A stretch of DNA of 46,435 nt. It comes from Rhodocyclales bacterium (GTDB lineage: Bacteria; Pseudomonadota; Gammaproteobacteria; Burkholderiales; Rhodocyclaceae). A program made the translations under genes and the position numbers. The notes under the pieces were generated by a model that did not search any database, was not told where the DNA came from, and saw only the letters and a program-made list of their open reading frames with translations. Position 1 is the stretch's first letter, and the number at the start of each line of letters is the position of its first letter. Where the stretch lies: assembly GCA_026399415.1 (NCBI GenBank), contig JAPLQZ010000042.1, positions 1 through 46,435 of the forward strand, read 5' to 3'. Of this stretch, positions 13,857 through 38,509 are shown piece after piece.

Positions 13857-14576
13857 TCAGAATTTTAGTTGCCACCACTCCAGCGTTACCGCCTTCAGGC
13901 CATCGCGCTCCTGATTTTCTCCATCCCAGACCGCGAATGCGATCGGCATGGTGCTTTTGCCTTGCAGGCTGGCACCCTCGTCAGATTTAACCTTCAGGGA
14001 ACGCGACAGAACCACCGCCCAGCCGCTATCCGTTCGTACTCCGGTACTCTTCAGGCCTTCGAAGGGTACCAGGGTGGAGGTGCCGAAGCCCTTGGCGACC
14101 AGGTTTTCGGTATGGCCGTTGGCCAGCCAGTGCCAGACATTCACCGCGTTCACGGGGTCGCCCATGAAGGGCGTGGTGGAGGCTTTGCCGTTAACAGGAA
14201 ACTGGACTGCCGCACCGTCCACGAACTGCCCCGTGTCCTTGATTGCCGTATTGGCGGTGCGGTCGTTCCAGGCCAGCTTCACGAACAGCCGGTCACCGGC
14301 ACGCACCACCTGAGCCGTAAGGCGCTCGGCAACGGGGGTGCCGACGATGGAGCCATGCCCGGGAAAGGCAGGCTGCAGGGCGACCTGGGCGGCCGGCGCC
14401 TTTTTCCAGATCGCCGCGTCGGGTGAGGCGGCATCCACGCCCGCCACCGAAAGGACTCGAATGGTCTTCGTCGCGGGAGCGGCTTGCACCGCGGTCGCGG
14501 CGAGGCCGACCGTCGCGGCGGTCGAGGTAAGTATGGCGAGCGCCACCAGTTGCTTCATCAGATTGCTTGGGTTCAT
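13857..14576 (-). CDS. Heme b gamma subunit of type II DMSO-reductase-family enzyme
   Basis: 239 aa from ATG 14576 (GGGAGA upstream). A Sec signal peptide ends near VQAAP (~35), so the protein is periplasmic. The rest matches the all-beta heme-b electron-transfer subunit of selenate reductase, chlorate reductase, dimethyl sulfide dehydrogenase and ethylbenzene dehydrogenase (SerC/ClrC/DdhC/EbdC): [28 protein letters not shown], and the terminal [21 protein letters not shown]. In EbdC the heme iron is held by Met and Lys; Met in PFMGDP and Lys in LVAKGFG are my candidates here. Last gene of the operon, 16 bases after the chaperone gene. It links the Fe-S chain of the alpha/beta pair to a soluble cytochrome. 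Confidence 0.85.
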
Positions 14577-14592
14577 GTGTATCTCCCGATTC

Positions 14593-15153
14593 TTAGGATT
14601 CGCTGCCGAGCCGGCCGCGGTGAGCTTCGACCAATTCGGCAAGCGCCGTCCCGAACTGCGCATACGCCGTATCCGTCGCCTCCAGCTTGCGACGGAATTC
14701 CGGCAGCCAGGCCGCGAGGTGCCTGTTGAGGAAGTCCCGGCCCGCGCGCCGGAAGGATTCCGCATCACCGCCCTTCTGCTCCGCCGCCTGCTCCTGCATG
14801 CAAAGCCAGGCGAGAAACTCGAGTTCGGTGACGAGGTGATCCGGATACTCCCGATCGGTCTCGGACAGCTTGACGTCGAAGAACTCGTAGAAGCGCAAGA
14901 GGTCTTCGAGAATGCCCTCGCGTCCCAGGTCTCCCCGGTGCATGCCTTCGAACAGGGGCACCGGCGACTTGCCGCGTCCCAGTTCGAAGGCGGCCAGGTA
15001 GTCGGCCTCCATGGCGTCCTGGCCGAGCGTCGGATCGATCAGTCCATGCTCCACCAGACGCTGCCAGGCTTCCGGATTCGGGTAGGAGAAGAGCTGAGCC
15101 ATGCCCAGATAGGCGCCCGCCAGGATGCCGGCTGCGTCGGTCTGCGCGTTCAT
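14593..15153 (-). CDS. TorD/DmsD-family chaperone for the type II molybdoenzyme
   Basis: 186 aa, all-helical, no signal peptide, so cytoplasmic. Family features are an N-terminal [12 protein letters not shown], then [22 protein letters not shown] and [16 protein letters not shown], the acidic helix seen in NarJ/SerD/DdhD proteins. These proteins bind the apo-alpha subunit and its Tat signal until the molybdenum cofactor is inserted. The start overlaps the beta-subunit stop by 4 bases. A second, different TorD-like protein is encoded upstream in the same cluster next to the other molybdoenzyme, so each enzyme seems to have its own. Confidence 0.85.
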
Positions 15154-16130
15154 AGCCGGTACCTGTCCTTGTTGGTGTAGCCGATCAGAATCTCGGTCAG
15201 CTCCGAGGGCTTTGCCTCCCGGCGCTTCTGCATCTCGCGTCCGAGGGTCTCCAGCGCCTGCTTCGTGCCGGGGCCGAACAGCGCCTCGAGATCCGCGAGC
15301 GGAATGCGCGGCTTGTCGCCCAGCCGGCCATCTTCTTCAAAAACCAGCGGCGTGGTATTCATCGGCGGCACGTAGAACACGTTGGGCTCGGTGCCATATT
15401 CGGCGTGCAAGGGTAGCGCCACCTTCCACTGCTCGACCAGCTTATGAATTGGCCCATCCTTGTCGTCGCGGTAGCCGACGAAGCGGATCTTGCCCACGCA
15501 TTGCGCCACGCAGGCCGGCGGAACGCCCTTCTCCACCCGTGGATAGCAACCGATGCATTTCTCCGACTTCTGGGTTTGCAGATTGAAATACACCTTGCCG
15601 TAGGGGCAGGCCTTGACGCAATAGCGGTAACCCTTGCAGCGCTCCTGGTCCAGCACCACCAGCCCGTCCTCCGGCCGCTTGTAGATCGCCTTGCGCGGAC
15701 AGGCCGCCAGGCATGCCGGGTTGGAGCAATGGTTGCAGATGCGCGGCAGGTAGAAATAGTGGTCGTTGGGGAACTCGCCCTTGCCCTCGTCCTCGTCCCA
15801 ATTGACACCCCAGGTGGGTTTCTCGTGCGGCACGACCTGGTTGCCCTTGCCTTGCAGCAAGACTTCTTCGAGGTTGTACTCCCAGACGCCGCCGTAGTCT
15901 TCCTTCGGCGGAATCTTGCCGTCGGTCTGCAAGGCCCCGCCCTTGAAGCCGCCGCCCTTCTGCTCCCAGTTCTTCGGGTAGCCCTTGCCGGGGCGCGTTT
16001 CCACGTTGTTCCAGTACATGTACTCGCGCCCGTCGCGGTTGGTCCACAACTGCTTGCAGGCCATGGTGCAGGTGTGGCAGCCGATGCACTTGTTCAGGTC
16101 GAATACGTAGGCCAACTGTCTCTGGCTCAT
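15150..16130 (-). CDS. Iron-sulfur beta subunit of type II DMSO-reductase-family enzyme
   Basis: 326 aa. Four cluster-binding Cys groups are visible: CIGCHTCTMAC, CNHCSNPACLAAC, CKGYRYCVKAC and the split set CIGC plus CVAQC. In the third group Tyr occupies a usual Cys position, as in NarH/SerB-type subunits where that site holds a [3Fe-4S] cluster (family knowledge), giving three [4Fe-4S] and one [3Fe-4S]. No signal peptide; such subunits are exported with the Tat-dependent alpha partner. Ten bases separate it from the alpha gene and its stop overlaps the chaperone start. It carries electrons between the gamma heme and the Mo site. Confidence 0.92.
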   Translation of the reverse strand: MSQRQLAYVFDLNKCIGCHTCTMACKQLWTNRDGREYMYWNNVETRPGKGYPKNWEQKGGGFKGGALQTDGKIPPKEDYGGVWEYNLEEVLLQGKGNQVVPHEKPTWGVNWDEDEGKGEFPNDHYFYLPRICNHCSNPACLAACPRKAIYKRPEDGLVVLDQERCKGYRYCVKACPYGKVYFNLQTQKSEKCIGCYPRVEKGVPPACVAQCVGKIRFVGYRDDKDGPIHKLVEQWKVALPLHAEYGTEPNVFYVPPMNTTPLVFEEDGRLGDKPRIPLADLEALFGPGTKQALETLGREMQKRREAKPSELTEILIGYTNKDRYRL

Positions 16131-16140
16131 GATCTGTTCC

Positions 16141-18882
16141 TCAGGCTTTCTCGACGTCGACCGTCGTTTCGTAGAAGATGCGGTTCGGATTGAAGCCGCC
16201 GGACACGTACCTGATGTGGCCGTAGCCCCCCACCAGTTCCAGCGGGTTGATCAGCTCGGCGCCGACGTCGTTGTAGTGGGTCATGTTCTTGTACAGGTAC
16301 TGCTCCCAGCCGTGCTCGGAGAACACCTGATCATCCGGCAGCGAAGGGGCCAGTTTTGCCATGGCGAAAAACTCGCCCTGCCCGTTGAATACCCGCACCA
16401 GATCGCCGTCCTTGATGCCCTTGCGGGCCATGACCTTCGCATTGAGGCAAACGTCCGGCTCGCCGCGCTGATGGCGCAGCAGCCACTTCTCGTTGCGGGC
16501 GAAGGAATGGATGCCCCAGCGGGTGTGCGGCGAGTTGGTCTTGAAGGGGTACTTCTTCGGCCCCAGGTGGCCACCCTTGACCTGCGGTTTCGGCAGCGTC
16601 GCGCCAAAGCGCTGGAACCACTCGTGGTCCACGTAGAACTGCAGGCGACCGGTGAGCGTGCCGTAGGGCTTCTTGTCCGTCACGTTCACGGTGAAGGGAC
16701 GGTAGGGCTTGTCCGCAGGCACCGGCCCTGTCTTGCCGGCCGACTCGCCCACGGCGACGAAGCCTTTCTTCATCGCCTCCTCGTAAGTGCCCGCGCCCAG
16801 TGCCTTGGAGCGCTCCATGACGAAGCGGAGCGCTTGTTCGTCGCTAACGACTTTGCCGTCCATGGTGAACTCGTCATAGACCTTGTCGAAGTCGATCCAG
16901 CTCTTGATCTCCGGGTCTTCCACCCGGGAAATGCCGCGAGCCCTGGCCCGCTCCTGGATTTTCCTGGCGAGCTCCAGGTTGATCTGCCAGTCGGTCTTGC
17001 GTTCGTACATGGGCTTGATCGGCTGGCCATAGAGATGGATGAAGCGGGTCGTCGAAGTCTCGCGGATGTCCAGTTTCTCGATCGCCGCGGCCGGTAGGAC
17101 GATGTCGGCGTACATGGCGCCCGAATTGAGACGGAAGTCCACCACCACCAGCAGTTCGCAGCGCTTGAGGAAGTTCTCCGCCAGATGGCTGTAGCCGTTG
17201 GAAGTGGCCCAGAGGTTGATGCCGCCGTTGATGTAGACCACCGGGTCCTTGATCGACTGCCACTTGGGCATCCAGCCCTTGGCCTCCGACTCCTTGCGCA
17301 GGGCCTCCATGTCGTCCACATCGAAGCCGATCTGCTCCTTCAGCTGGGCCGCGTCGTAGTAGGCCTTGGAGCGGCGGTACTGCTCGCCCCATACCCACTG
17401 GGCCAGCACCATGGAGACGCTGCGGCCCGGCCTGTCCTTCACGGCGCCGAGTTCCGTGTTCCCTTCCAGGCGCCAGCCCTCGTAGGTGGTGTCGATGGAA
17501 CCCGTGGTGCCATGGTGGCCGATCAGGGTGAGGATGAGGATCTTCAGCCGCCCGCACTGGAAGCCGTCCATGTGCTTCTGGTTGTTGTAGCCGTCGAGGA
17601 TGCGCAAGGCCTTGCACTCGGCGATCCAGCCGGCGAGCTTGCGCACCACGGTCGGATGGATGCCCGTGGTGGCCTGGGTGACCTCGGGCGTGTAAGGGGC
17701 AATCTCGGCCTTCAAGCGCTCGAAGACCGTGGTCACCTCGATGCCATCCGCCTTGAAAGTGCCCTCCAGGGCCGGATCGACGGCGCCGAGTTTCAGGGTC
17801 TTGTCCTTGCTGCCCATGCTGCCGGGCGCCGCCACGGCCTTGCCGGTTTTCGTATCCCAGACGTAGAAAATCTCTACGCTGCCGTCAGGGTTGAAGTCCT
17901 TCTCGCGCAGGAACTTGCCGTTGTCGGTGCGCACCAGGAAGGGCAGGTCGGTTTGTTCCTTGAGGTAGTCAGCCTTGTAATGCTTGCCGGCGATGAGCGT
18001 GTTCACCAGCGCCGCGGCGAGATGGGAGTCTGTCCCCATTTTCACCGGCACGAAGAAGTCGGAGTGGATCGAAGATGGATTGTAGTCCGACGAGATATTC
18101 ACCAGGCGCGCGCCGTTGTAGCGCGCTTCCATCAGGAAGTGTGCATCCGGCTGGCGTGTGACGATGGGATTCTTGTGCCACATCAGGATCAGGTCGGAAG
18201 TGAACCAGTCGTCGAAGGTGGACACGGTGCGTGCCGGCATGCGTACCGTCTGGATGCCGGGATACAGGTCACCCGTCATCGAGGAGACGTCGGGCTTGAT
18301 GGCGCCCAGCAGGTTTGCCAGCCGCGTATAGGCGGTGTTGCTGATGACCGCAAAGGGCCGCTTGGGAATGCATATATTGCCGGGGCCACGCTTGATGGTG
18401 GTGTCAATGACCTTGTCGGCGATCTCGGTCAGCGCCTCGTCCCAGGAGATGCGCTTCCACTTGCGCTCGCCGCGCGCGCCGACGCGCTTCAGCGGCCACT
18501 TGAGGAAGTCCGGCTGCTTGACCCAGGAACAGTACACGGCGCCCTTCGCGCAACCGCGCGGGTTCATGTCGGGAATGCCGGGCAGTTGCGGATACTCGCT
18601 CACCTGCTCCTCGCGCATGGGCACGCCGTTCTTCACGAACACCTTCCAGGCGCAGCCCGCCACGCAGCCGTTGGAGTGGGTGGTGAAGCCCACCGAATCC
18701 CAGGTCCATTCCTTGCGGTAGAGGTCTTCCCAACCGCGGTAGGGATAGCTCTTGAGGGGATCGTCGATGGGCAGGATTTTGGAAAAAGCCCATGCGCCGG
18801 AGGGCACGGCCATGTTGGCCAGTGCCGCGCCGGAGATCTGCAGGAACCTGCGGCGGCCGTTGCCATCGTTCGGAGTGTTCAT
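16141..18882 (-). CDS. Molybdopterin alpha subunit, type II DMSO-reductase family (selenate/chlorate reductase-like)
   Basis: 913 aa. A twin-arginine signal ([10 protein letters not shown] at ~9-18) directs export to the periplasm. The [4Fe-4S] site is His69-x3-Cys73-x3-Cys77-x33-Cys111; a His as first ligand is diagnostic of the type II subgroup. Asp205 in SMTGDLYPG is the likely Mo ligand. The remainder covers the bis-MGD binding domains to the C-terminus, complete for the family. Gene order alpha-beta-chaperone-gamma is that of serABDC, clrABDC and ddhABDC, not ebdABCD. Perchlorate reductase places Phe-Tyr five to six residues before its Mo Asp (from memory); here those are Val-Ser, which argues against that substrate. 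Selenate, chlorate, nitrate, a sulfur compound or a hydrocarbon remain possible. Confidence 0.88.
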
Positions 18883-18892
18883 CGCGCTTCCT

Positions 18893-19861
18893 CTAGGTTT
18901 GAAACGGTTGTCTGGAAATGCATGTCAAATTCATTGCTGTCGAGTAGTACGTCGTTCGGATCGCGTGCAGCGCAGCCCGCAGCTTGTCTTCCAGTTCTGC
19001 ATCGGAGCAGTCGGCTCGCAGCGGGGTACGAAAATCCACGCAGTCGTTCTGACCCAAGCACATGTGCAACATGCCATCAACACCGAGGCGCACCCGATTG
19101 CAGGTCTCGCAAAAATGCTGGGAGATGGGTGTGATGAAACCAATCTGAAAACCACCGTCGGACGACACCAGGTAGCGCGCAGGTCCGCCGCCGGGAATCA
19201 CGCCATCGACCAGGCCGAAGCGCTCACGCAGTCTTTCGCGCACCGGACGCAGATCCAGGAAGCCCGCATCGCGACCGGTCGCGCCCACCGGCATGGTCTC
19301 GATCAGGCGCAGCACGAAGCCGCGTTCCATGCAGTAGGTCACCATCGAGGTGATGTCCTCGTCGGTGGTGCCGGCCAGTGCCACCATGTTGATCTTGATC
19401 AGACGAAAACCTTCGCTGCGGGCGACTTCCAGGCCGTCGAGCACCTGCGGCAGCGCATCCCGTCGACAAATCGCGCGGACCCGCGCGCGATCGAGGGAAT
19501 CGAGGCTGACATTGAGCCGCGTCACACCGGCCTTGTGCAGACTCGCTGCGTGTTTCGCCAGTTGCGTGCCATTGGTGGACAGCGAGAGATCGTCGATGCC
19601 TGGCAGTGCCGCCAGCTGCCGTGCCAGGTCGGGCAGGTTCTTGCGTAACAATGGCTCACCGCCGGTCAGGCGGATGCGCTTCAGTCCCAGGCGGGCGAAC
19701 ACCGACAATAGCCGCTCGATTTCGTCGAAGCTCAGCCAGTTTTCCGACTCCTCGTAGCCCTTGAATCCCTCCGGCATGCAGTACGAACAGCGCAGATCGC
19801 AGCGGTCCGTGACTGATAGCCTGAGGTAGTCGACGCGGCGGCCGAAGCTGTCTTCCAGCAT
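18893..19861 (-). CDS. moaA: GTP 3',8-cyclase, radical SAM (molybdenum cofactor synthesis)
   Basis: 322 aa from ATG 19861; sequence upstream in frame belongs to the NapC-like gene. Converts GTP to the 3',8-cyclo intermediate of molybdopterin synthesis. The radical SAM motif is CDLRCSYC, with GGEPLLRKN for SAM binding, and the C-terminal cluster set is CETCNRVR...MLHMC, the GTP-binding second [4Fe-4S]. Odd point: the protein ends [16 protein letters not shown] and lacks the Gly-Gly terminus usual in MoaA, which is important in characterised enzymes. No frameshift restoring it was found. Two bases from the NapC stop and 10 bases before the alpha gene, so it is an operon-borne cofactor gene, perhaps a second copy in the genome. 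Confidence 0.88.
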
Positions 19862-19863
19862 GG

Positions 19864-20457
19864 CTAATCCATCTTGGCAACGCTCGGCCGCTTGTGGGCG
19901 AGGCCCTTGTGACAGTCGATGCAGGTCTCGCCTTTCTTCTGGCCTTCCTTGTGCCCGCGCCAGGCCGTCGGGGTCTGGGTCGCCTTGGACATGCCGTCGT
20001 AGCTGTGGCAATTGCGGCATTCCCGGGAATCGGTGGCCTTCATGCGGTCCCACTCGTGTTGTGCCAGTTCCAGACGCTTGGCCTCGAACTTCTCCAGTGT
20101 ATCGATGGTGCCCATGATCTTGCCGTAGATCTCGCCGGAGGCCTGGATCTTGCGGGCCATCTTGTGCACCCAGTCCTTCGGCACGTGGCAGTCGGAGCAG
20201 ATGGCGCGCACGCCGGAGCGGTTCGAGTAGTGCACGGTATTCTTGTATTCTCGATAGACCGTGTCCTGCATCTCGTGGCAGGAAGTGCAGAACTCCATCG
20301 TATTCGTCGCCTCTATGCCGGTGTTGAAGCCGCCCCAGAAGATTATTCCGGACAGGAAGCCGACCACTAACACCGACAGCAAGGAAAACCTGGCGTTGGG
20401 GCGTCTGAGAACTGCCCAGGCGCGCGCGAGCGCGCCCGGTGCCTTTGGATCGCTCAT
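19864..20457 (-). CDS. NapC/NirT-type tetraheme quinol dehydrogenase
   Basis: 197 aa. A cytoplasmic Arg-rich lead (~1-23) and one membrane helix (~24-46) are followed by a periplasmic domain with four heme c sites: CTSCH, CSDCH, CRNCH, CIDCH. The pattern, size and spacing are those of the NapC/NirT/CymA family, which oxidises membrane quinol and passes electrons to periplasmic reductases. It is the only evident quinol-linked membrane protein in the operon; no NrfD-type multi-helix subunit accompanies either molybdoenzyme. Its start overlaps the tetraheme cytochrome stop by 4 bases. Confidence 0.92.
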   Translation of the reverse strand: MSDPKAPGALARAWAVLRRPNARFSLLSVLVVGFLSGIIFWGGFNTGIEATNTMEFCTSCHEMQDTVYREYKNTVHYSNRSGVRAICSDCHVPKDWVHKMARKIQASGEIYGKIMGTIDTLEKFEAKRLELAQHEWDRMKATDSRECRNCHSYDGMSKATQTPTAWRGHKEGQKKGETCIDCHKGLAHKRPSVAKMD

Positions 20458-21158
20458 TCAGGAATTTCCTTGGCGGTCTTCTGGAACTCGGCGCGAACCT
20501 TCGGTAACGGTTCGCCCTCGAAGGAGCCTTTCAGCTTGTAATGCTCGTGCAGGGCCTTGGTGCGGACCGCCTTGTCGAAGTCATACTTGTACTTGGCATC
20601 GACGGCCGGCGTGAATGGCGTGAAGGGCGCCTTGGCACCCTTGAGCGGCGAACCCTGGTAGTTGAGATGGCACACCGCACAGGCGCGCTCGTAGTCGAAA
20701 ATCTCGCCCAAACCGACCAGTTTTTTGCGCGGCGTGGTTTTTGAAGCCCGCACAAACTGCTTCTCCGCCGCGGCGTGTTCGTCGCGATAACCTTCCCCAG
20801 GGCCATGGCAGGATTCGCAGCCGACCGAGCCCAATGCCATTTCGCCGCCTGGCGCCGCACCGATCTTGTAGCCACCGGGTTTGCCGTAGCCTGTGCTGTG
20901 GCAACCGATGCAGTCCTTGTCCTTGGTGTAGTCCTTCGCCGGATCGAGCTTGGCCTTCTTCTTCTCTTCCACCTTGGTGTTGGCTTTCAGGGAATCGAAA
21001 GCCTTGGCGTGGGTCGTGCCTGCCCATGAGTCGCCCTGGACGGCGTGGCATTTGGTGCAGACCGCGACGCCGACATACTCTCCAGGAGCGGCGGATACCG
21101 TTAAAGCCAGACCAAACAGCGCTGCGGCCGTCAGAATCTGTAATTTGAATCGCCTCAT
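20454..21158 (-). CDS. Secreted tetraheme cytochrome c (c554-like)
   Basis: 234 aa from ATG 21158, preceded by CAGGAGAAACGAAG. A signal peptide ends near VSAAPG. Four heme c sites are CTKCH, CIGCH, CESCH and CAVCH, with a GSVGCESCHGPGEGYRDEH stretch typical of cytochrome c554-family domains. The C-terminal ~70 residues are Lys-rich and heme-free. It is probably a periplasmic carrier between the NapC-like protein (next gene, 4-base overlap) and a molybdoenzyme. No catalytic residues for a nitrite or hydroxylamine enzyme can be asserted. Confidence 0.88.
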   Translation of the reverse strand: MRRFKLQILTAAALFGLALTVSAAPGEYVGVAVCTKCHAVQGDSWAGTTHAKAFDSLKANTKVEEKKKAKLDPAKDYTKDKDCIGCHSTGYGKPGGYKIGAAPGGEMALGSVGCESCHGPGEGYRDEHAAAEKQFVRASKTTPRKKLVGLGEIFDYERACAVCHLNYQGSPLKGAKAPFTPFTPAVDAKYKYDFDKAVRTKALHEHYKLKGSFEGEPLPKVRAEFQKTAKEIPE

Positions 21159-21212
21159 CTTCGTTTCTCCTGGTTCAAAAAGTTGTTCAAAATCGTTCAT
21201 GACCGCCGATCG

Positions 21213-22142
21213 TCAGCAGCCGCAGTCTGCTTCCACCGAGATCGCTGTCTGGGCCGATGCCTTCTCGCCGTTGGCGTCCTCGGCGCGCAGAATTACGACG
21301 TACAGTCCCTGCGTGAAGGTGTGTTCGACCTCTTTGGTTGCGGCCGATTCGCCGTCGCCGAATTCCCACGAGACAGATTTCAGCTTGCCGCTGCCGCCCC
21401 TGGGCAAAGCCTTGAGACTGACCTTGTAGGGCGCATTGCCGCGACGGCTGATGACGCCGCCGATCTTCAGGGCGAACTTGCCGCCGGCCGCCGCACCGAC
21501 TTCATCGATCAGGAGGCTGCCGCCTAGATCCCTGGAAACCTTTGTCAGCGATTGTTTGATCTTGTCATCCATGGCCGCGGTGCCGCCCGGCTTGACTCCA
21601 GCCTGGATCGTGGCTTGCGAGCCATCGTCAATACGCAGGATTTCGGTGCCCGTATCGACAACCAGGCGACCGAGCACGGTCCACGCCGTCAGGCTCTTCT
21701 TGTCCGGATCAAAGTTCAGAGCAAATTCGGCGCCCTGTGCGCGCGTGCTCAGTCCACCCATGCGGATCTGGAAATCAGCGAACAGATGCTCGGGAACCTG
21801 GGCCTTGGCGAACACGCGCCCCCTGGCGAGTTCGAGGATAGTCTGTTCCAGTTTCTTTTCGAGGTCGAACGAAACGCCCGCCAGTTCGAGCTCTGCATTC
21901 GGATAAAGCTTAACCATGCTGCCGTTGGTCCATGACAGCAGCGCCGCCGACTTGTCACGGGTCGTGATACGGTCGCCGCGCTCCAGCACGTCGCCATCCC
22001 TGGCCGGCTTCCAGTCCCTGGCTCCGCTCTTGCGAATCTCGACGCTGCCGTCGCTTTGCGAAATGCGTACGACGGATGCATCCTCCGCCGAGGCGACAAC
22101 GCTCCATAGCGCCCATACTGCAACTGCCAAAAATTTCATCAT
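21213..22142 (-). CDS. Secreted FecR-domain protein with C-terminal PKD domain
   Basis: 309 aa from ATG 22142 (AAGGAAGC upstream). A signal peptide ends near VASAEDA. A FecR-type beta domain (~25-165) includes LERGDRITTRDKSAALLSWTNGS and a segment where the protein says TRAQGAEFALNFD. A linker follows, then a PKD/immunoglobulin-like domain (~220-300) with VSWEFGDGES and HTFTQGLYVVILRAED. The chain ends EADCGC, a Cys pair at the very C-terminus. There is no membrane helix after the signal, so it is not a classical FecR anti-sigma regulator; a periplasmic or surface binding or scaffold role is inferred. It lies between a PKD gene and a cytochrome gene in a respiratory operon, an unusual place for this fold. 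Confidence 0.75.
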   Translation of the reverse strand: MMKFLAVAVWALWSVVASAEDASVVRISQSDGSVEIRKSGARDWKPARDGDVLERGDRITTRDKSAALLSWTNGSMVKLYPNAELELAGVSFDLEKKLEQTILELARGRVFAKAQVPEHLFADFQIRMGGLSTRAQGAEFALNFDPDKKSLTAWTVLGRLVVDTGTEILRIDDGSQATIQAGVKPGGTAAMDDKIKQSLTKVSRDLGGSLLIDEVGAAAGGKFALKIGGVISRRGNAPYKVSLKALPRGGSGKLKSVSWEFGDGESAATKEVEHTFTQGLYVVILRAEDANGEKASAQTAISVEADCGC

Positions 22143-22178
22143 TGCTTCCTTATGTTCGCTGACCAAGCCTGGCCCTTG

Positions 22179-22535: not shown

Positions 22536-22537
22536 GG

Positions 22538-24379
22538 TTAGAACTTGACCTCCGCGCGGAAGACGACCTCTTTCGCAGCTTTCGGCTTGCTGCCGTCAGG
22601 CAGGGTGTAGACCGCACCCGGCTTGAAATAGCCGAGGGCAATGAAACCATCCACGTGTTTGTAGATCGGGAATCCCACATTGAGGTCGAGTTCCCAACCG
22701 ACATCTCTCGTCTTGTCGAACGATGTCGCCGTACCCTGACTCCAGTCGTTCACCGGTCCGCGCCCCTTGAAGACCTCGCTGGTCGTCCAGATCCGCGTCA
22801 GTGACGGCGTCAATTTCAGTCCATGACGCGGCTCCAGGGTCGTGTCCACACGAACGTAAGTGACATTGGACAGATTGCTGTCCCAGACGTAGTACCCGGC
22901 ACGGATGTCTTCGCTGAAAATGTTGCCGAACTTGTGGCGCTCCGGGCACATGAAGAGCGCGTTGTAATTGCGCACTGTTCCATTGATCGGGTCGCTTGTT
23001 TCATTGCCCGAGCCGCGACCGAACTGCAATCCCGCAGAGAGATTGGTCAAGGAGCCGACCTTGCCGAAGTCACGCATGGCTTTGAGCAGCAGCGCATTCG
23101 CGCTCAACTTGCGTCCGGCCGCGTAATCTCCGGTAAGCGAGACAGCTTCGGCATCGAACTTCCACGATGCGAATTCCGCAGAGGCCGTAACGCCGGCCCA
23201 CAAGGGCCGGAATTGGCCATCACGCGGCAGGGTGGTGGCGTTGAAGTCCTTGTCGAGATTCATGTCGGGGTCGCCAGCTCCGCCGCGATCAACCACTTTC
23301 AATAGGTAGGGCTTGACGCGCAGCGCGCGCGAAGCGCGAATGTCGAGATCGGCGTAAAAGGCGTCAAGACTGTTGGAGGCGCCGAATATCTCCTGACGAG
23401 TGCCGCCCAGCCGTCCGCCCGTGGCGTTGAAGGTGGCATAGCTGCTATAGCCGCCGGGTACCGCCATGTAGCCGGCCGACAGCGTGGTCTGCCCCCACGG
23501 CAATTGGCCGAGCGGAACCTGGAAGCGGATGCCGTCCATCGGCCCTTCGAGCACGATTCTTTGCCCGATATCCCAGGTTTGCCGTCCGACCCGGGCCATG
23601 AATTCCGGGCTCGTGTATTGGACGAACAATTCGCGCACCAGCGGGGAGCTGGGTGTACGGAACTGTCCCCAGCGTTCCAGGGTGCCTTCGCTGTCTTCCT
23701 TCCAGTCGCTGACAAAGTTTCCCTTGTCGAGCACCAGCCGCGTCAGGAGTGCCTCATAAGTGGCGTCGATCTGCAGCGAGAAGCGGTGGTCGACAAAGGT
23801 GTTGTTGTCATATTTCCATCGCTGCAGCGGATTGCCCAGATCGAAGTTGTGGCGCGAATTGACTTGCGCCTTGTACTTTCCGGAGAAGTCGAACTGCACC
23901 TTGTCTTTTTGCGCTTCTTCGCGCTTGGCGATCTCGGCCGTGGACTTCCGGTTTTGGGTTTCCAGTACCAGAAGGCGACGGCGTGCCTCGTCGTCACGCC
24001 CTTCCGCCTTCTTGTCCACCTCAAGTTCGTCCCACTCCCCGCCGACTGCGGCGGTCTTGCCTCCGGCGGGCTTCGCCGCCGTCCCACCAGCGCCGACTCT
24101 TTCACCGGCCGGAGTTGCCCCCGGCCTCTGCGCCAGTTCTGCCCGCAATCGTCCTGTTTCCTCGCGGTACTGTGTGACTTGGGCTTCCAGTTCCTGCAAA
24201 CGCCGCAGGACTTCATTCTCCGTTGTCGCGCCCTTGGCGGCAGCGGATTTCTTCGCCACCGGGGCGGCCTGCGCCTGCTCAGCGATTCCGCCAGCGAACA
24301 CCGCGTATCCTGCAATGAGGGCACAGGCAGACACACTGCGCTTCAAATTTTTGTGGCGCACCCCGTCACTCCGGTTCAT
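22538..24379 (-). CDS. Large outer-membrane beta-barrel protein with N-terminal coiled coil
   Basis: 613 aa from ATG 24379; longer open sequence upstream is antisense-like over the triheme cytochrome gene. A signal peptide ends near EQAQAAP (~39). A coiled coil (~50-85, ENEVLRRLQELEAQVTQYR) and a Gly/Ala-rich linker follow. From ~165 comes an alternating-strand barrel with DFSGKYKAQVNSRHNFD, NNTFVDHRFSLQIDATYE, VRELFVQYTSPEFMARVGRQTW, and a terminal Phe after AEVKF, the outer-membrane insertion signal. The texture resembles alginate-export/porin-like barrels rather than MtrB, and no CxxC is seen near its N-terminus. It may admit the substrate or hold the cytochromes at the outer membrane. Operon position ties it to the molybdoenzymes. 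Confidence 0.75.
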   Translation of the reverse strand: MNRSDGVRHKNLKRSVSACALIAGYAVFAGGIAEQAQAAPVAKKSAAAKGATTENEVLRRLQELEAQVTQYREETGRLRAELAQRPGATPAGERVGAGGTAAKPAGGKTAAVGGEWDELEVDKKAEGRDDEARRRLLVLETQNRKSTAEIAKREEAQKDKVQFDFSGKYKAQVNSRHNFDLGNPLQRWKYDNNTFVDHRFSLQIDATYEALLTRLVLDKGNFVSDWKEDSEGTLERWGQFRTPSSPLVRELFVQYTSPEFMARVGRQTWDIGQRIVLEGPMDGIRFQVPLGQLPWGQTTLSAGYMAVPGGYSSYATFNATGGRLGGTRQEIFGASNSLDAFYADLDIRASRALRVKPYLLKVVDRGGAGDPDMNLDKDFNATTLPRDGQFRPLWAGVTASAEFASWKFDAEAVSLTGDYAAGRKLSANALLLKAMRDFGKVGSLTNLSAGLQFGRGSGNETSDPINGTVRNYNALFMCPERHKFGNIFSEDIRAGYYVWDSNLSNVTYVRVDTTLEPRHGLKLTPSLTRIWTTSEVFKGRGPVNDWSQGTATSFDKTRDVGWELDLNVGFPIYKHVDGFIALGYFKPGAVYTLPDGSKPKAAKEVVFRAEVKF

Positions 24380-24396
24380 CGACAATTTTGCCGGCG

Positions 24397-24969
24397 CTAT
24401 TTGGCCGCCAGCGGCGCGCCGTAGAAGGTCTTGATCTTGCTGTCCGGGCCGTGGCATTGGACACACACCAGATCCTTCAGGGTGGGCTTGAAGAGATGCG
24501 GATCTGCCTGGCGCATTGCGTTGACCGGGATGTATTGCGTCCCCTCGCCGCCGCGTACCACCAGTTTGTGCCATACGTCCAGCGGATTCTGCATGACGTT
24601 CGGGTGGTAGACGTCGCCCTTGACGAACCAGCCCTCCTTCTTCTTGGCCTTGGGTTCCGAGGGCACCACCATCTCGTGGCAGGTCACGCAATCCCGATTC
24701 TTGCCTTCGTAGGCCGTCTTGTTCGACGTGAGGTGCAACTGGTGCAGATTGGGAATATTCTTGCGCGCCGTCTTGACCTTCAAAATATCCTTGTGACAGT
24801 CGATACAAATCTGGTTCTTGGCCTTGAAATCCGGCACCTTCCCGGTGGCCGGCTTGGCAACCGCTTTCGGCGGCCAGTCGATCGGCGTCTGCGGGTCCAG
24901 TGGCTGCGATGCAAGGGTCGCTGTCGAGACCAGTGCCAGAAATGTCAAGCTCAGGATTCGGATGCGCAT
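24397..24969 (-). CDS. Secreted triheme cytochrome c
   Basis: 190 aa from ATG 24969, chosen over the Met four codons upstream because GGAGAAC sits 4 bases before it. A signal peptide ends near TATLAS. Three heme c sites are CIDCH, CVTCH and CVQCH, with further His (HQLHL, YHPNVM, WHKLV) as distal ligand candidates. The N-terminal half, with CHKDILKVKTARKNIPN, resembles NapB/c7-like small periplasmic carriers. It overlaps the end of the TorD-like gene by 19 bases and is followed by the outer-membrane barrel. Probable partner of the TtrA-like enzyme or of the barrel. Confidence 0.85.
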   Translation of the reverse strand: MRIRILSLTFLALVSTATLASQPLDPQTPIDWPPKAVAKPATGKVPDFKAKNQICIDCHKDILKVKTARKNIPNLHQLHLTSNKTAYEGKNRDCVTCHEMVVPSEPKAKKKEGWFVKGDVYHPNVMQNPLDVWHKLVVRGGEGTQYIPVNAMRQADPHLFKPTLKDLVCVQCHGPDSKIKTFYGAPLAAK

Positions 24970-25640
24970 GTTGTTCTCCATTCGGAATGAATCTGGGCGA
25001 ACATCGGCACGAATATCCGTTCGGCCCCAAGAAATTCGATGGTGAGGGTGGCCAGTGCCCGATAGATTTCGAGACTGGTCTCATTGAGAATCTTCTCGCA
25101 CAGTGGGCGATACCAGCACAGCAGATGCTCGGTGAGAAAACCGTTCTGGAAATCAATGCATCTTTGCAGTCCATCGCCATCAGGCTCATTCCAGAATTGC
25201 CTCTCGATGTCACAGAGGAACTGCATGAACTCCAGTTCCACGCCCATGTGGTCGGGAAGTTCCAGACAGGCGCCGGTCAGCTGCGCTGCCGCGTTGTCGT
25301 AGTAGAGCTTGACGGCGGCCGTCACATGCCCTCCCACGCGCTGGTTCTTGTCCGCGTAGTACGATTCGTGCGGAACGACGCCGGAGGGCAGCGCGAACAG
25401 CCGCGTCTGCTCGGCAACAATTTCCGCTTCGGCGAGTCCATCGGACACAGCGCGCCTGAAAGCCTCCGTTAGTGCGTCGGCAGCCGCGCGCAAACCACTG
25501 TTGCCCTCCGCCACCAGCCCACCCGCCCGAATCAGCGCGGACAGTTCCGGCGATGGCGGCGCCGAAAACAACGACGCCAGCAAGGCGTAGGTCTTCGCCC
25601 GACCGCTGGCAACAATTTGCATTTCGCCGGAATTGATCAC
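24951..25640 (-). CDS. TorD-family chaperone for the TtrA-like molybdoenzyme
   Basis: 229 aa from GTG 25640, one base after the preceding stop and preceded by GGAGGAAACTAAA, a much better start than the later ATG at 25622. Helical cytoplasmic protein with YALLASLFSAPPSPEL near the N-terminus, LFALPSGVVPHESYYAD and LPDHMGVELEFMQFLC in the middle, the last matching the acidic helix of NarJ/TorD proteins. Role by family: binds the apo-enzyme until molybdopterin is inserted and export can proceed. It sits in the half of the operon next to the TtrA-like alpha and beta subunits, so I assign it to that enzyme. Confidence 0.82.
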   Translation of the reverse strand: MINSGEMQIVASGRAKTYALLASLFSAPPSPELSALIRAGGLVAEGNSGLRAAADALTEAFRRAVSDGLAEAEIVAEQTRLFALPSGVVPHESYYADKNQRVGGHVTAAVKLYYDNAAAQLTGACLELPDHMGVELEFMQFLCDIERQFWNEPDGDGLQRCIDFQNGFLTEHLLCWYRPLCEKILNETSLEIYRALATLTIEFLGAERIFVPMFAQIHSEWRTTCASES

Positions 25641-25641
25641 T

Positions 25642-26820
25642 TTAGTTTCCTCCACTGAAAAAGCTTCGGGCCACGGAATCGCGACGGTCGCCGCTGACCT
25701 GACACGCGGGACAGAAAGCCAACCCGTTCCCAAGAATGCGCTCTCCGCAGCCTTGACACTTTGTCAGCCTGGCGGATATGAGCGTGACGCGGCTACGCTG
25801 GAACAACAACGCCAGGTCGACCGTCTGCCGGAGATGCAGGGCTTGGTGATAGCAGGCCAGTTCGCATACCCGACAACCAGTGCACTGTGCGGCATCGAAC
25901 TCGAGCGCGTAGTTGCCGGCTTCCTCGCGATGCGTTAGCGCGCCGGTGGGACACAGGGTTTCGCAGACATTGCAAGCGACACAACGCTGGTCGACGTCCA
26001 GTTGCCCGAGGGGAATCGCCGCTGCCAAGACGTGTTTCGATGTCACCTTCAATCCGGGCAGGGCATCCAGGACCCCCAGCAGATCCGTCCGCTTTGAATT
26101 TTCCGAGTGGCGTTGCACGATGTCACGGAAAGCTTCCGGCTCGGTGCCCCCTGCCGCCGCGATCTCAACTGGACGCTCATCGCCGCCCGATTTCAAGCGT
26201 TCGGCGATGGCTCCAAACAGCCGACGCCGTGAATTGGGCGTCCTGGCCGGCAGGCGGATCTCCTGCGCATCGCCGACCTGAACTTGCACACTCGATATTC
26301 GTGCCACACCCAAGCCGGCCGAGTCGCAAAGTGCCTGTGAAAAAGCCAGCGTGCGCTCCCACTGCTGGGCCGTCTTCCTCAGGCCGCAGCCTGAACAATC
26401 CGGCGCGCACAGTTCGACTCGCCGCGCGTCGCGCCGGATCGGCTCCAGCATCAGGGCCTCGGTCAAGCGGGAAAGACAAGGCAGCACCATGTCGGCGCGG
26501 ACCTGCGCCCGGATGCAGGCAAAGCGGAATACTTCACCCGCGCGGGCCTTCTTCGCGATACGCTCCGCCACACGTTGATCGTCTTCCAGCAGCCGGATGG
26601 CGCCATTCGGGCACGCCGATACGCAGGCGCCGCAACCAACGCACGCGGCGTTGATTTCGGCACTGTTGTTGCCAGTCCCGTCACCCAGGCGAACTGCGCC
26701 GGGGGCGGGACACACCATGGCGCACGCCGCACATTCCGACTTCGTGCTGCGGAAGCGGGAACATAGCGTGCTGTCCAGCCTCACCGGCACTTGCAGCCCG
26801 ATTTCGATCAGCGAGTTCAT
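25642..26820 (-). CDS. Multi-cluster 4Fe-4S ferredoxin-type protein
   Basis: 392 aa from ATG 26820; TTG 26835 is an alternative. No signal peptide. The first ferredoxin pair near the N-terminus is CAACAMVCP and CVGCGACVSACP. A middle region of ~170 residues contains CAPDCSGCG and no recognised fold. The second pair at ~285-335 is CVACNVCETLCP and CTGCRVCELAC. The tail has CQGCGERI and CPAC, spaced like a zinc ribbon. So up to four [4Fe-4S] clusters plus a metal knuckle. It lies between the molybdoenzyme beta subunit and its chaperone. A NapF-like cytoplasmic maturation or electron-supply role is one possibility; nothing in the sequence proves it. Confidence 0.75.
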   Translation of the reverse strand: MNSLIEIGLQVPVRLDSTLCSRFRSTKSECAACAMVCPAPGAVRLGDGTGNNSAEINAACVGCGACVSACPNGAIRLLEDDQRVAERIAKKARAGEVFRFACIRAQVRADMVLPCLSRLTEALMLEPIRRDARRVELCAPDCSGCGLRKTAQQWERTLAFSQALCDSAGLGVARISSVQVQVGDAQEIRLPARTPNSRRRLFGAIAERLKSGGDERPVEIAAAGGTEPEAFRDIVQRHSENSKRTDLLGVLDALPGLKVTSKHVLAAAIPLGQLDVDQRCVACNVCETLCPTGALTHREEAGNYALEFDAAQCTGCRVCELACYHQALHLRQTVDLALLFQRSRVTLISARLTKCQGCGERILGNGLAFCPACQVSGDRRDSVARSFFSGGN

Positions 26821-26844
26821 GCTTGCGGATACCAATGTATTGCG

Positions 26845-27468
26845 TTATTTGGACGTGTACTGCACGCTGGGTTTGGTGTCGGCGCCGCCAACACTAATGC
26901 TGACACCCTTTGCACGCCGTTCCCGCATGACCATCGTCAGTTCATTCAGTTCGCCGAAGAAGCGGACTTTGGCCGGACAGGTGGTGACGCACGCGGGTTG
27001 CAGACCCTTGTCGGTGCGATGAACACAGAGCGTGCATTTCTCCATGATCTTGGCCTCGGCGTTGAACTGGGGTGCGCCGTAGGGGCAGGCCCAGGCGCAG
27101 TAGCGACAGCCGATGCATTTGTCCTTGTTGATAAGGACGATGCCGTCTTCCTTGCGCTTGGTAATGGCGCCCACCGGGCAGGCCGCCTGGCAGGCCGGCT
27201 GCCCGCAGTGCATGCAGGGCATGGGCACGAAAGTCACGCCGACATTCGGCGTCTTGCTCGCATCGCGGAAGTCGCCTTCCTCGATTTCGATCACGCGGTT
27301 GTAATCCACGCCGACCGGCGTGTTGTTCTCCGCTTTACAGGCGATGGTGCAGGCGTTGCAGCCTATGCAATGTTCGATGTCGACCCACAGCGTGTATTGC
27401 TTGGGACCCTGCTTGGCGAAGGAGCGGTCGATGGCTTCGCGGGGGATGATGGGGCTGTATTCGGCCAT
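26845..27468 (-). CDS. Four-cluster iron-sulfur subunit of TtrA-like molybdoenzyme
   Basis: 207 aa, typical length for DmsB/PhsB/TtrB/ArrB subunits. All four [4Fe-4S] groups are complete: CIGCNACTIAC, CMHCGQPACQAAC, CIGCRYCAWAC, and CTLC with CVTTC. No Cys is replaced, unlike the beta subunit of the second enzyme in this operon. No export signal, so it should travel with the Tat-dependent alpha subunit. Ten bases follow the alpha gene. Usual membrane partners of this subunit (NrfD/DmsC type) are absent, so electrons probably arrive from a cytochrome (inference). Confidence 0.92.
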   Translation of the reverse strand: MAEYSPIIPREAIDRSFAKQGPKQYTLWVDIEHCIGCNACTIACKAENNTPVGVDYNRVIEIEEGDFRDASKTPNVGVTFVPMPCMHCGQPACQAACPVGAITKRKEDGIVLINKDKCIGCRYCAWACPYGAPQFNAEAKIMEKCTLCVHRTDKGLQPACVTTCPAKVRFFGELNELTMVMRERRAKGVSISVGGADTKPSVQYTSK

Positions 27469-27478
27469 GATGTTCTCC

Positions 27479-30409
27479 TTAGACTTTTTCTACGCGAAGT
27501 GGCGTGCCATAGCTCTGCGTTCCGCCGCCCACGGGATCGAGCATTCCACGGTCTTTCAGGACCGGGTCGGCCATGTAGAGCGGGTTGACACTGAAGCCCG
27601 CGGCGATGCGCTTGTCGTAGAACTGCGGCTTGCCGTCCGCTGCCCAGGCCTTGCCGCCGGCGCCCCAGCGCCCGTAGGAGTTGCTCACGGAGAACACCCC
27701 GGGACGGATGCGGCTGGTGACGCGAACCTGCATCTTGTACCAGCCGTTGCCCATCGATGTTTCGACGTAGGAGATATGCGTGCTGGAAGGCGATTTGACC
27801 TTGACCCAGTCGCCGGTCACGACCCCCATTTTTTGCGCATCGGCCGGGTTGATTTCCGCGAAGTTCTGCGGTTTGATCGCGGCCAGCCACAGGTTGTTCA
27901 TGGTGCGTGTCTGGGTGTGCCAGGCATCCTTGTGGGTGTGCAACTGGAATGGATACTCCTTCCAGATCGCTGGATCGAGCGGGTCTTCCTTGCAGTCGAT
28001 GATCATCCGGTACTGCGGCAGACCGTCATAGTATTTGCCGGTCATGCTGTTCTTGTTGGCCGCCACATGCGCGGCGTAGACATACAGGCCGCGTACCTGG
28101 CGCCCGCCCGGGAAGCGTGTGTATTCGCCGGCAGCATCGTACTGTTTGCTCGGATTCTCGAACTTGCCGCCGAGCTTGACCAGGCGGCTGTCCGGATCGA
28201 GACCCGGCTCGCCCTTGAAGTCGCCGTTCTTGTAATACTCGTCCCAGAACTGCCAGGATGTGAAGAGGTCCTTGCCCGGGCCGCCACCGTCCTTGCCGAA
28301 ACCCGGCAGGCCGCAGCGGATAGCCAACTGAATCAGCGTGTCGTCCGCCGTCTGCACGTCCGGATGGATGCCGCGATAACTCTTGGTCTTCGGGTCGAGG
28401 GTGCCGATAACCGGCTGCCGCAAACCCTGAACCTGGGTCTTCACCGGCGGATAGGTCTTGAAGCCGCCGAAACGCTCCAGGTACTCGGTATCCGGCAGGA
28501 CGTAGTCGCACAGCAGCGTGGTCTCGCCCATGTAGGCGTCGATGCTGACCGTGAGCGGGATGGCCTTCACGTCGAGCAGTGCGTCGATGACCGACGAGTT
28601 GAACGGCGTGGTGTAGGCCGGATCGTTGTAGTAGTTCAGATAGGCCTTGATGCGATACGGGTAGCCTTGCTTGGCCGAGGAGAAGAACTCGCTGGTCACC
28701 GTGCGCACCGCCAGCGGATACCATGGCCGCGTCGAAGTTGCCTTCTTGCCCTGATACTTGTCCTTGTGCCTATCGATGGAAACGCCCGCGACCTTGCGTG
28801 ACGGCCCGCCCACCGATCCGCCGTAAGCCTTGTGTCCGGGGATGTAGCCGCCCTTGCGATCGATGCTGTCCATCAGGATGTTCAGGGTGATCAGCGCCTG
28901 GCCGTTCCACCAGCCGTTCGACTGCTGGATCGGACCGCGGAACATCTCGATAACCGGGCGCTTGGCGCTGGAAAATTCCTTGCTCAGACGAGCGATGGTG
29001 CCGGCGGGAATGTCACAAATCTTTTCGCATTCCTCGATGGTCTTTTCGTGCGCGCGTTCGCGCAGCATGCGGAACACAGTCTTGAACTTCTCGCCCTTGA
29101 TCTCGACTTCGGCATCCAGATCTGCCGGCCCATCGACTTCGTGGAACAACGTCGGCTTGCCATTGACCAGCACCACGTAATCCGCCTGCCCCAAGCCGGC
29201 ATCCTTGCCGGAGAGGTAAAGCTTGGGCTCGGTGGTACGGACCAGGTAAGTCATGTCGCTCCAGTTGCGGCGACCGGTCTTCTTCGCTGCCTGCTCGTTG
29301 GGCAGGGCCAGGAAGTCGGCCTTGTAGCCCTTGTTGTCGATCATCCAGCGCAGCATGCCGAGCAGGAAGAAGGCGTCGGTGGAGGGCTTTAGCGGAATCC
29401 ACTCGCCCTTGCCCGACTGCAGCGCCTTTGCCGCGGCGGGGGACAGCCAGGGATCGACGATGACATGCTTGAATCCCTTTGAATCCGGACCAGTACGCTT
29501 GGCAAACTTCTGCAGGTAGCGTGCCCGTGTTTGTCCGGGGTAGTCGGCGTGGGTGATGTTCGAGCCGACGCTGATGAGGAAGGTGGTGTATTCGTAGTCG
29601 GCATAGGCGCCGATCTCGTAAGGCGGCACATTCAGCGTGTGCTCGACGACGTTGTAGAAGGTTCCCGCGCAGCGATCGCAGTGATTGAGCATGTTCGGCA
29701 CGCCCGCGGCGCCGGCGACGAAGCGCGGCGTCAGCGGCGACTGCTCGTTGCGGCCGTGGGCCCAGACAAACTGGTTGCGCTTCGGGCCATAACCTCCGGG
29801 CGGAGCCTCGTCCATGTAATCCGAATCCTCGGGACCGATCGGCTTGTCGTTGTTGAGGATGGACTTGAAGCCCTCGACCTGGCGGGTTTCCTCGCCGGGG
29901 ACATCCTTGAACAACAGCCCACCGTCAGTAATCTCGGTCAGGGCCTGTTCCCAGGAAATGGTCTTCCATTTTCCGGAACCGCGCGGCCCGACGCGCTTCA
30001 TCGGATGCTTGAGGCGGGCGGGACTGTAGAGGGCATAAATGCCGGCCTGTCCCTTGGCGCACAGGGTGCCGACGTCCTTGCCGGTGAGCCCGCCGTCGAG
30101 ATCGCTTTCCTCGACGATGTCGGCCTTGGACACGTAATCGTAGCAATTCGGGTGATAGGGGTTGCCGTCGATCTTGACCAGCTCGCCGTTCTGTATCGTG
30201 CACTGGATGCCGCAACCGCTGTGGCACATCAGGCACACGCTGCGCACGATCTTGGCGTCCGGGCCGACCATGTCCGGCTTGGACCCGGCCTTCCCTACCT
30301 GCGCCAGCCATTGCTGGGCGCTTGCCGGCTGAATCTGTGAGAAAGCCGCAACGCTTCCCGAGACTTTCAGAAAATCGCGCCGGTTGATGGAGTTCTCAAG
30401 TACTTTCAT
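27479..30409 (-). CDS. Molybdopterin catalytic subunit, TtrA/ArrA/PhsA-like
   Basis: 976 aa from ATG 30409, preceded by GGGAGGAAGC; 21 further open codons upstream are not needed. Twin-arginine signal at ~9-18 (NRRDFLKVSG). [4Fe-4S] ligands are Cys59-x2-Cys62-x3-Cys66 and then Cys117, a 50-residue gap that is longer than in most family members and contains NPYHPNCYDYVSKAD. A probable Mo-ligand Cys lies in NHCDRCAGT (244 or 247), which puts it in the Cys-ligated group with tetrathionate, arsenate and polysulfide/thiosulfate enzymes. Length is close to TtrA. Substrate not determinable. First gene of the 15-gene operon, with a sigma54-type promoter candidate upstream. Confidence 0.85.
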   Translation of the reverse strand: MKVLENSINRRDFLKVSGSVAAFSQIQPASAQQWLAQVGKAGSKPDMVGPDAKIVRSVCLMCHSGCGIQCTIQNGELVKIDGNPYHPNCYDYVSKADIVEESDLDGGLTGKDVGTLCAKGQAGIYALYSPARLKHPMKRVGPRGSGKWKTISWEQALTEITDGGLLFKDVPGEETRQVEGFKSILNNDKPIGPEDSDYMDEAPPGGYGPKRNQFVWAHGRNEQSPLTPRFVAGAAGVPNMLNHCDRCAGTFYNVVEHTLNVPPYEIGAYADYEYTTFLISVGSNITHADYPGQTRARYLQKFAKRTGPDSKGFKHVIVDPWLSPAAAKALQSGKGEWIPLKPSTDAFFLLGMLRWMIDNKGYKADFLALPNEQAAKKTGRRNWSDMTYLVRTTEPKLYLSGKDAGLGQADYVVLVNGKPTLFHEVDGPADLDAEVEIKGEKFKTVFRMLRERAHEKTIEECEKICDIPAGTIARLSKEFSSAKRPVIEMFRGPIQQSNGWWNGQALITLNILMDSIDRKGGYIPGHKAYGGSVGGPSRKVAGVSIDRHKDKYQGKKATSTRPWYPLAVRTVTSEFFSSAKQGYPYRIKAYLNYYNDPAYTTPFNSSVIDALLDVKAIPLTVSIDAYMGETTLLCDYVLPDTEYLERFGGFKTYPPVKTQVQGLRQPVIGTLDPKTKSYRGIHPDVQTADDTLIQLAIRCGLPGFGKDGGGPGKDLFTSWQFWDEYYKNGDFKGEPGLDPDSRLVKLGGKFENPSKQYDAAGEYTRFPGGRQVRGLYVYAAHVAANKNSMTGKYYDGLPQYRMIIDCKEDPLDPAIWKEYPFQLHTHKDAWHTQTRTMNNLWLAAIKPQNFAEINPADAQKMGVVTGDWVKVKSPSSTHISYVETSMGNGWYKMQVRVTSRIRPGVFSVSNSYGRWGAGGKAWAADGKPQFYDKRIAAGFSVNPLYMADPVLKDRGMLDPVGGGTQSYGTPLRVEKV

Positions 30410-35996: not shown

Positions 35997-36030
35997 AATT
36001 GAATGTCCCAAGAAACAGAATCACGACAGA

Positions 36031-36046: not shown

Positions 36047-36051
36047 TGGCT

Positions 36052-37020: not shown

Positions 37021-37099
37021 CTTTGCTCTCCCATTTACTGCGATTGATCGCGTAATCTCCGACCCGGCCGCGAATTGAAAGAATATGCGAGGTGGCGAA

Positions 37100-38505: not shown

Positions 38506-38509
38506 GTCG

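Follow-up and report, generated by a model that had tools for sequence, protein, structure and literature searches.

Which enzyme reduces selenite after a Ser-type selenate reductase has acted is a standing question. For Enterobacter, the available part of one report assigns the selenite step to a separate system (PMC12724226). The nearest described four-subunit enzymes are SerABDC of Thauera selenatis and ClrABDC of Ideonella dechloratans. The TtrA/SrdA and ArrA lineages are listed as Cys-ligated in the accessible sections of PMC7331816 and PMC10100899, where SrrABC of Bacillus selenitireducens and SrdBCA of Bacillus selenatarsenatis are described as Cys-type molybdoenzymes acting on selenium oxyanions. 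The arx genes (arxXSR/arxB2ABCD), as far as PMC6549141 could be consulted, combine a divergent binding protein, kinase and regulator, as do aio and arr, with ferredoxin- and TorD-type genes by the enzyme. Here, a run of fifteen minus-strand genes (positions 13857-30409) is described from a contig of 46,435 nucleotides of a Rhodocyclales bacterium (JAPLQZ010000042.1; contig C40 of a 3.1-Mb draft genome of 315 contigs, 85.8% complete), the whole of which is called the window. The run contains a TtrA-like as well as a SerABDC/ClrABDC-type molybdoenzyme. With a probability of about 0.4, it may encode a two-enzyme anaerobic respiration of an oxyanion, most likely selenate, in which the TtrA-like enzyme would carry out the second step, perhaps on selenite. 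The genes of the run (A to O) and the features next to it are as follows.

A, 27479..30409, minus strand: TtrA-like molybdoenzyme, 976 amino acids (aa); start of twin-arginine translocation type; PF04879/PF00384/PF01568; predicted molybdenum (Mo) ligand Cys247, clade-specific Cys244 (TGA in some relatives)
B, 26845..27468, minus strand: DmsB/TtrB-like Fe-S subunit
C, 25642..26820, minus strand: ferredoxin-type protein with several 4Fe-4S motifs
D, 24951..25622, minus strand: TorD/NarJ-type chaperone
E, 24397..24969, minus strand: triheme cytochrome, three CXXCH
F, 22538..24379, minus strand: 613-aa outer-membrane barrel, AlgE-like (Alginate_exp), 18 strands in the model
G, 22179..22535, minus strand: small PKD protein
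H, 21213..22142, minus strand: FecR+PKD protein with an invariant C-terminal CxC
I, 20454..21200, minus strand: tetraheme c554-type cytochrome, four CXXCH
J, 19864..20457, minus strand: NapC/NirT-type tetraheme quinol dehydrogenase, four CXXCH
K, 18893..19867, minus strand: MoaA (TIGR02666, above cut-off)
L, 16141..18882, minus strand: SerA/ClrA-type molybdoenzyme (TIGR03479), Asp aligned in the GD motif
M, 15150..16130, minus strand: SerB/ClrB-type Fe-S subunit (TIGR03478)
N, 14593..15153, minus strand: SerD/ClrD-type chaperone of NarJ/TorD type (TIGR03482)
O, 13857..14576, minus strand: SerC/ClrC-type heme b subunit (TIGR03477)
X, 30897..31745, plus strand: PhnD-like periplasmic binding protein (PF12974)
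S, 31742..33196, plus strand: sensor histidine kinase (HisKA/HATPase)
R, 33177..34544, plus strand: sigma-54-dependent response regulator
Upstream of A, 30697..30712, minus strand: sigma-54-like site, 2 mismatches, a consensus match only
Upstream of X-S-R, 30631..30646, plus strand: sigma-54-like site, 2 mismatches, a consensus match only
Possible accessory gene, 34743..36011, minus strand: 422-aa protein with five CXXCH; the two Sedimenticola genomes have a 57-58% identical homologue between L and A

A preliminary description of this DNA had announced fifteen tightly spaced genes, and all 15 were present, neighbours being separated by 2-36 bases or overlapping by 4-19 bases with the chosen start codons. 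Assignment with Pfam and NCBIfam models confirmed the families named there, namely the NapC-like protein, the tri- and tetraheme cytochromes, the 613-aa barrel, the two PKD proteins, MoaA and the two chaperones. Two modules make up the run, A-H with the TtrA-like molybdoenzyme and L-O of SerABDC/ClrABDC type, with I, J and K between them. As had been stated, the latter enzyme is complete: L, M, N and O, in the order alpha-beta-chaperone-gamma, scored above the curated type II cut-offs (TIGR03479, 1324.8 bits against 984.75; TIGR03478, 582.3 against 480.7; TIGR03482, 168.1 against 152.3; TIGR03477, 219.6 against 169.85). A splitting of the unit by internal promoters or terminators had also been considered; over the run and both strands, one promoter-like site (shuffle mean 3.2) and 15 terminator-like sites (shuffle mean 16.5) were predicted, so that neither signal was above chance.

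L-M-N-O resemble SerABDC and ClrABDC in their four subunits and gene order, L being 82.5% identical to ClrA of Ideonella and of Alicycliphilus; the likeness to the Thauera enzyme is one of subunit families. In contrast to both, the genes stand here behind a TtrA-like module with a c554-type cytochrome, NapC and MoaA, are accompanied by a PhnD-like/kinase/sigma-54 trio and have no chlorite dismutase (Cld). TtrA tetrathionate reductase and the TtrA/SrdA group (SrdA by description only) are nearest to A among the systems compared, with the Mo-ligand Cys aligned; A differs by its low identity (27-36% to TtrA-type enzymes), its score below the TtrA cut-off, its long branch, a [Cys/Sec]xxC motif and the lack of an NrfD anchor in the unit. 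X-S-R is arranged like the arx, aio and arr regulators, but A scores far below the ArrA cut-off, there is no ArxC-type anchor, and the barrel, PKD/FecR and heme proteins are additional. From Srr, which the consulted portions of PMC10100899 and PMC7331816 place with PsrA/PhsA, A is set apart by those descriptions, as it lies beside TtrA.

The linkage of the two modules was followed across genomes. Within the family, A was found in 7 of 199 genomes (100% in its own, 83-97% in six; next best match 36%), and L at 82% or more in five, all of them among the seven with A. Among 369 genomes of the class, A was found only in its own genome and L elsewhere reached at most 42%. These searches scored the best four candidates per genome for the family and the best two for the class and could have overlooked weaker copies. 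Scanning 84,980 species genomes yielded 25 A loci, with Sulfuritalea, Sulfurisoma, and metagenome-assembled genomes (MAGs) of Thermodesulfovibrionia and Desulfobacterales among the hosts; the nearest homologues are in Rhodocyclaceae and Sterolibacteriaceae MAGs. No homologue of at least 60% was found on plasmids. Leaving out L074 (a partial match of 44% with Trp in place of Cys244), H was present in 18 of 24 loci, and the six without it (L050, L062, L063, L069, L070, L073) end before that place. All loci with H except L061 also have F (17 loci), while I (11/24) and J (10/24) were confined to Proteobacteria. Module A-H also occurs without L, over four phyla. L of at least 82% identity was found in 11 of the 20 A-bearing genomes searched, on A's contig in ten; the remaining genome, G209, has the locus divided over contigs. 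G199, with two copies of L, was counted once.

Three arrangements of the halves were observed, all with the X-S-R trio (ARRANGEMENTS). In the first, a single run, the exact contiguous set of 15 genes was found in the window, G001 and G207 (A interrupted); the run recurs with losses in G121 (lacking G, J and K), in G041 and G025 (both lacking K) and in G206 (lacking I, with J partial and K on the far side of O). The A gene of G207 (L066 10001-12770) lies in two frames, either a real lesion or an assembly error. In the second, in the Rhodoferax MAG G205, A-K is followed by R-S-X divergent from L-O. In the third, in both Sedimenticola genomes, R-S-X divergent from L-O is followed after about 17-18 kb by A-J without G and K; in S. 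selenatireducens the distance is 17 kb. The separated halves thus share one contig in G205 and in both Sedimenticola genomes. S. selenatireducens carries R-S-X/L-O a second time, on a different contig, together with a MoaA-like gene but without A. Judged from the genomes compared, this recurrence of gene order across genera, and of A-H across phyla, is more than chance. The joining of a Cys-type and an Asp-type molybdoenzyme, to which the preliminary description had drawn attention, recurs, with a common regulator type. Conserved co-occurrence of all 15 genes holds for three genomes, and the fifteen form two separable modules. The halves do occur as independent loci (A-H without L-O in 9 of 20 genomes, the S. 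selenatireducens L copy without A), but separated halves keep the regulator type. The valS gene (10909-13743) adjoins O in the window, G001 and G209. Because it lies directly beyond O in all three, the unit seems to occupy one chromosomal place there.

X-S-R (30897-34544, plus strand) is divergent from A and matches, in composition and orientation, the oxyanion regulators of Aio/Arx/Ttr-like type. The same type of trio (R-S-X) precedes L where the halves are apart (G205 and the two Sedimenticola genomes). Since it precedes A in single runs and L in separated forms, the regulator goes with either half. A -24/-12-like site (at least 10 of 12 positions) precedes A in 11 of the 12 loci that have a close X-S-R and in none of the seven that lack a close one; it precedes L in all four cases where the halves are apart and in none of six where they are contiguous. 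The background rate was 21 of 438 other genes. The hit counted for G121 is within X; its intergenic site has a score of 9, and so does that of G168. Starts were those of the longest open reading frames. The tallies omit the second pieces of A genes that are split (G207, L062, L065, L071), L114 (from the genome that also contains L055), L109 (G209, with a score of 8 and a split contig) and L072 (A at the contig start, with no DNA upstream), and for L also G121, where L was not called as a gene.

The assignment of A as TtrA/ArrA/PhsA-like stood in part. TtrA was its best equivalog, with 369.5 bits, far below the cut-off of 1750, and the ArrA model gave 81.1 bits against 1600; by model score A thus falls in neither group. 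When placed in one tree with TtrA-type rows, A and its homologues formed a clade on a branch of 1.86 changes per site (support 100/100), with an uncertain sister because of long outgroup branches. This tree contained four family rows from the site alignment, which itself used 13 of 23 family rows (the other ten, on the wrong strand, were ignored). Pfam and NCBIfam gave no match to an NrfD-type (TtrC-like) anchor among the 15 proteins of the run. C was considered for this role and rejected, as it is a ferredoxin-type Fe-S protein. Locus L065, from Nitrospirota, has a DsrO-like/DsrP-NrfD pair ahead of A, an arrangement that would suit a quinol-linked enzyme; one quinol module seems here to replace another. 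B-like matches upstream of A occur also in L062, L063, L070 and L071.

Alignment with ArrA, FdhA and TtrA predicts Cys247 as the Mo ligand of A, so that position 244 sits three residues before it. In the A homologues of nine genomes of Nitrospirota and Desulfobacterales (L062, L063, L065, L070, L071, L073, L143, L146, L149), an in-frame TGA occurs at this place, N-terminal of the ligand; six loci of the species-genome scan carry it at one codon. A was present in 13 of 395 Nitrospirota genomes, six with TGA (three of them new), six without and one partial, the best two candidates per genome being scored, so that weaker copies may be missed. Codon 244 is TGC in the 12 TGA-free homologues shown, and Cys occupies the position in all further A homologues for which the motif was examined; other alignment rows have Gly, Ala, Thr or Trp. 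A replacement of the Mo ligand itself by TGA was dropped, since the alignment puts the ligand three residues further on. As the structure model of A was discarded (mean predicted local distance difference test score, pLDDT, 37.9), the position of residue 244 beside Mo rests on alignments.

Over the first 42 bases from the TGA, five sequences were 100% invariant (L073, out of register downstream, was left out), compared with 36-74% in other in-register windows. A hairpin of eight pairs resembling a selenocysteine insertion sequence was the best fold 3' of the TGA in eight of the nine; for L073 another fold was slightly better over 39 bases. All nine genomes have selB above the cut-off, and ARAGORN detected tRNA-Sec in five of six genomes tested (not in G211). 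Some relatives of A thus appear to use selenocysteine (Sec) beside the metal site. In G960 (likely relic listed as L145) the codon is TGC although the hairpin is preserved, and no selB passed the cut-off in this small assembly (1.8 Mb); a recent reversion is likely. In the window's own draft genome, selB exceeds the cut-off (G000:C259 98-1987), and no tRNA-Sec passed the gathering score in this incomplete assembly, the best match being read as tRNA-Ser. FdhA and FwdB are the Sec proteins of the molybdoenzyme superfamily named in the accessible text of PMC9312934 and PMC13188914, and an A-type family is not among the Sec proteins named in those parts.

Regarding the type II enzyme, the Asp of L aligned with the GD of PcrA, and in the tree L lies near Ideonella ClrA yet apart (the comparison being with ClrA). 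No Cld was found near L in the 20 A-bearing genomes, and in 8 of the 11 genomes with L none was found anywhere. Three of the 20 have Cld, each on a contig with a different, 36-37% identical PcrA-like gene. These putative (per)chlorate loci, apart from the unit, are L096/L099 (G001:C122), L094/L097 (G207:C73) and L095/L098 (G199:C26). In S. selenatireducens the L-type copy without A is 89.6% identical to Ideonella ClrA and the A-linked copy 82.3%. According to the available part of PMC5052931, this organism carries ClrA-like, SerA-like (serABDC order) and PcrA-like genes and respires selenate, not arsenate; an A homologue is not mentioned in that part. Since the other copy is ClrA-like, the A-linked copy would by elimination be the SerA-like gene.

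The C-terminal CxC of H was invariant in 19 of 19 sequences; we take it to resemble sulfur-carrier tails such as those of SoxY or DsrC. Of 23 stretches matched to E, some of which share a genome, 21 contain three CXXCH; L050 and L065, which are cut or partial, have fewer. The model of F (pLDDT 61.6) has 18 strands and AlgE as best structural matches, on which grounds an Mtr-type conduit was rejected. The flank (34743-46298) encodes the five-CXXCH protein, a VTT-rhodanese, a cysteine desulfurase, a Cys/Met pyridoxal phosphate (PLP) enzyme, a thioredoxin-like protein, a DUF1302-like barrel, a LolA-like protein and MMPL. Six of these (five-CXXCH, VTT-rhodanese, Cys/Met PLP, barrel, LolA-like and MMPL) have homologues between L and A in Sedimenticola; the cysteine desulfurase has none there, and the thioredoxin-like one was recognized by eye only. 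Close to the locus, Sedimenticola, G001 and G041 have an S-adenosylmethionine (SAM) methyltransferase that was identified by eye; its likeness to the SAM methyltransferase SefB beside SefA of T. selenatis, as reported in the consulted part of PMC3975340, is an analogy only.

We infer substrates, electron routes and directions, as well as the roles of C, F, G and H, along the following lines. X would sense the oxyanion in the periplasm, and S with R would switch on a sigma-54 promoter preceding A and, in genomes with separated halves, another preceding L. J would oxidise quinol and pass electrons to I and E. L-M-O, as a SerABC-type enzyme, would reduce selenate to selenite, and A-B would take the reduction one step further, most likely from selenite to Se(0). 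C and D may mature A, and N may mature L, with K supplying cofactor precursor; F would be an outer-membrane channel, and H may bind reduced chalcogen via its CxC tail. Two consecutive reductions of one oxyanion, as suggested in the preliminary description, is still the best-fitting idea, the fifteen genes having proved to be two separable modules with inferred substrates.

Several observations weigh against this assignment. As A adjoins TtrA-type enzymes in the tree, selenite is one option among several for it. X scores higher with phosphonate models than with a putative selenate model (77 bits, cut-off 250). Sigma-54-like matches are only weakly enriched over the window (24 against a shuffle mean of 15.48; 4 of 100 shuffles had as many), and among the loci counted as free of X-S-R, some have remote homologues of it (22-40%). 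L is missing from 9 of the 20 A-bearing genomes, and in L056 (20434-22851), L065 (20479-22848) and L041 (G168, contig end) a PhsA/PsrA-like enzyme, 70-89% mutually identical, follows module A in the place of SerABDC. The contiguous form is known from draft or metagenome genomes only. Because L is so close to ClrA, identity alone cannot separate Ser from Clr, and with the own genome only 85.8% complete, the absent Cld may be an assembly gap.

The main rival is that A reduces a sulfur compound of tetrathionate, thiosulfate or polysulfide type, or another oxyanion, and has only the regulator, MoaA and cytochromes in common with the SerABDC-type enzyme. This is unlikely but has to be taken seriously: TtrA is the best equivalog of A and lies beside it in the tree, over a long branch; the hosts include Sulfuritalea, Sulfurisoma, Thermodesulfovibrionia and Desulfobacterales; nine A-bearing genomes do without L; and rhodanese, DsrE-like, cysteine desulfurase and flavocytochrome-c-like genes occur in the window or its relatives. 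However, the TtrA score of A is far below the cut-off and its identity is 27-36%, and one regulator with sigma-54-like sites for both A and a Ser/Clr-type enzyme would be left unexplained.

That the halves are unrelated in function, at a site which collects transferred respiratory genes, is improbable. Extra molybdoenzymes near A point that way, both PhsA-like (L056, L065, G168) and type II (41-42%; G001, G121), but one regulator trio stands before either half, the sigma-54-like site precedes L only where the halves are apart, all five L-bearing family genomes have A, and close order is kept in Sedimenticola of another class. The second type II molybdoenzyme is encoded on A's contig, some 7-11 kb upstream (L089, G121:C10; L091, G001:C139). 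Still more improbable is an oxidation and a reduction sharing a cytochrome pool, with A oxidising as ArxA does. The opposite-strand X-S-R, ferredoxin and TorD genes recall arxXSR/arxB2ABCD in the part of PMC6549141 consulted, but A falls far below the ArrA cut-off (ArrA being the model compared) and beside TtrA-type rows, and the NrfD/DsrO pair of L065 is usual in reductases, though not proof of direction. Least probable is a unit for chlorate with L-O as its chlorate reductase, since despite the ClrA-like sequence of L no Cld was found near it in the 20 genomes, and the 89.6% copy of S. selenatireducens is precisely the one without A beside it.

Returning to selenate respiration by two enzymes, a more specific proposal, tentative and as a whole doubtful, is that A-H forms an as yet undescribed family, respiratory reductases of chalcogen oxyanions that use Sec or Cys by lineage. 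The second thiol or selenol would join catalysis, the CxC of H would accept or carry the reduced chalcogen, F would serve entry or export, and together with SerABDC a full route from selenate via selenite to Se(0) would result. If an oxyanion reductase carried Sec next to its Mo ligand and not as the ligand itself, the selenoproteome would gain one molybdoenzyme family, and the A family would offer a natural comparison of Cys and Sec at a single active site. The locus offers a candidate enzyme for the selenite step together with a cultured organism, Sedimenticola selenatireducens; if the proposal is true, A-H would supply a dedicated selenite reductase to Ser-type selenate respirers.

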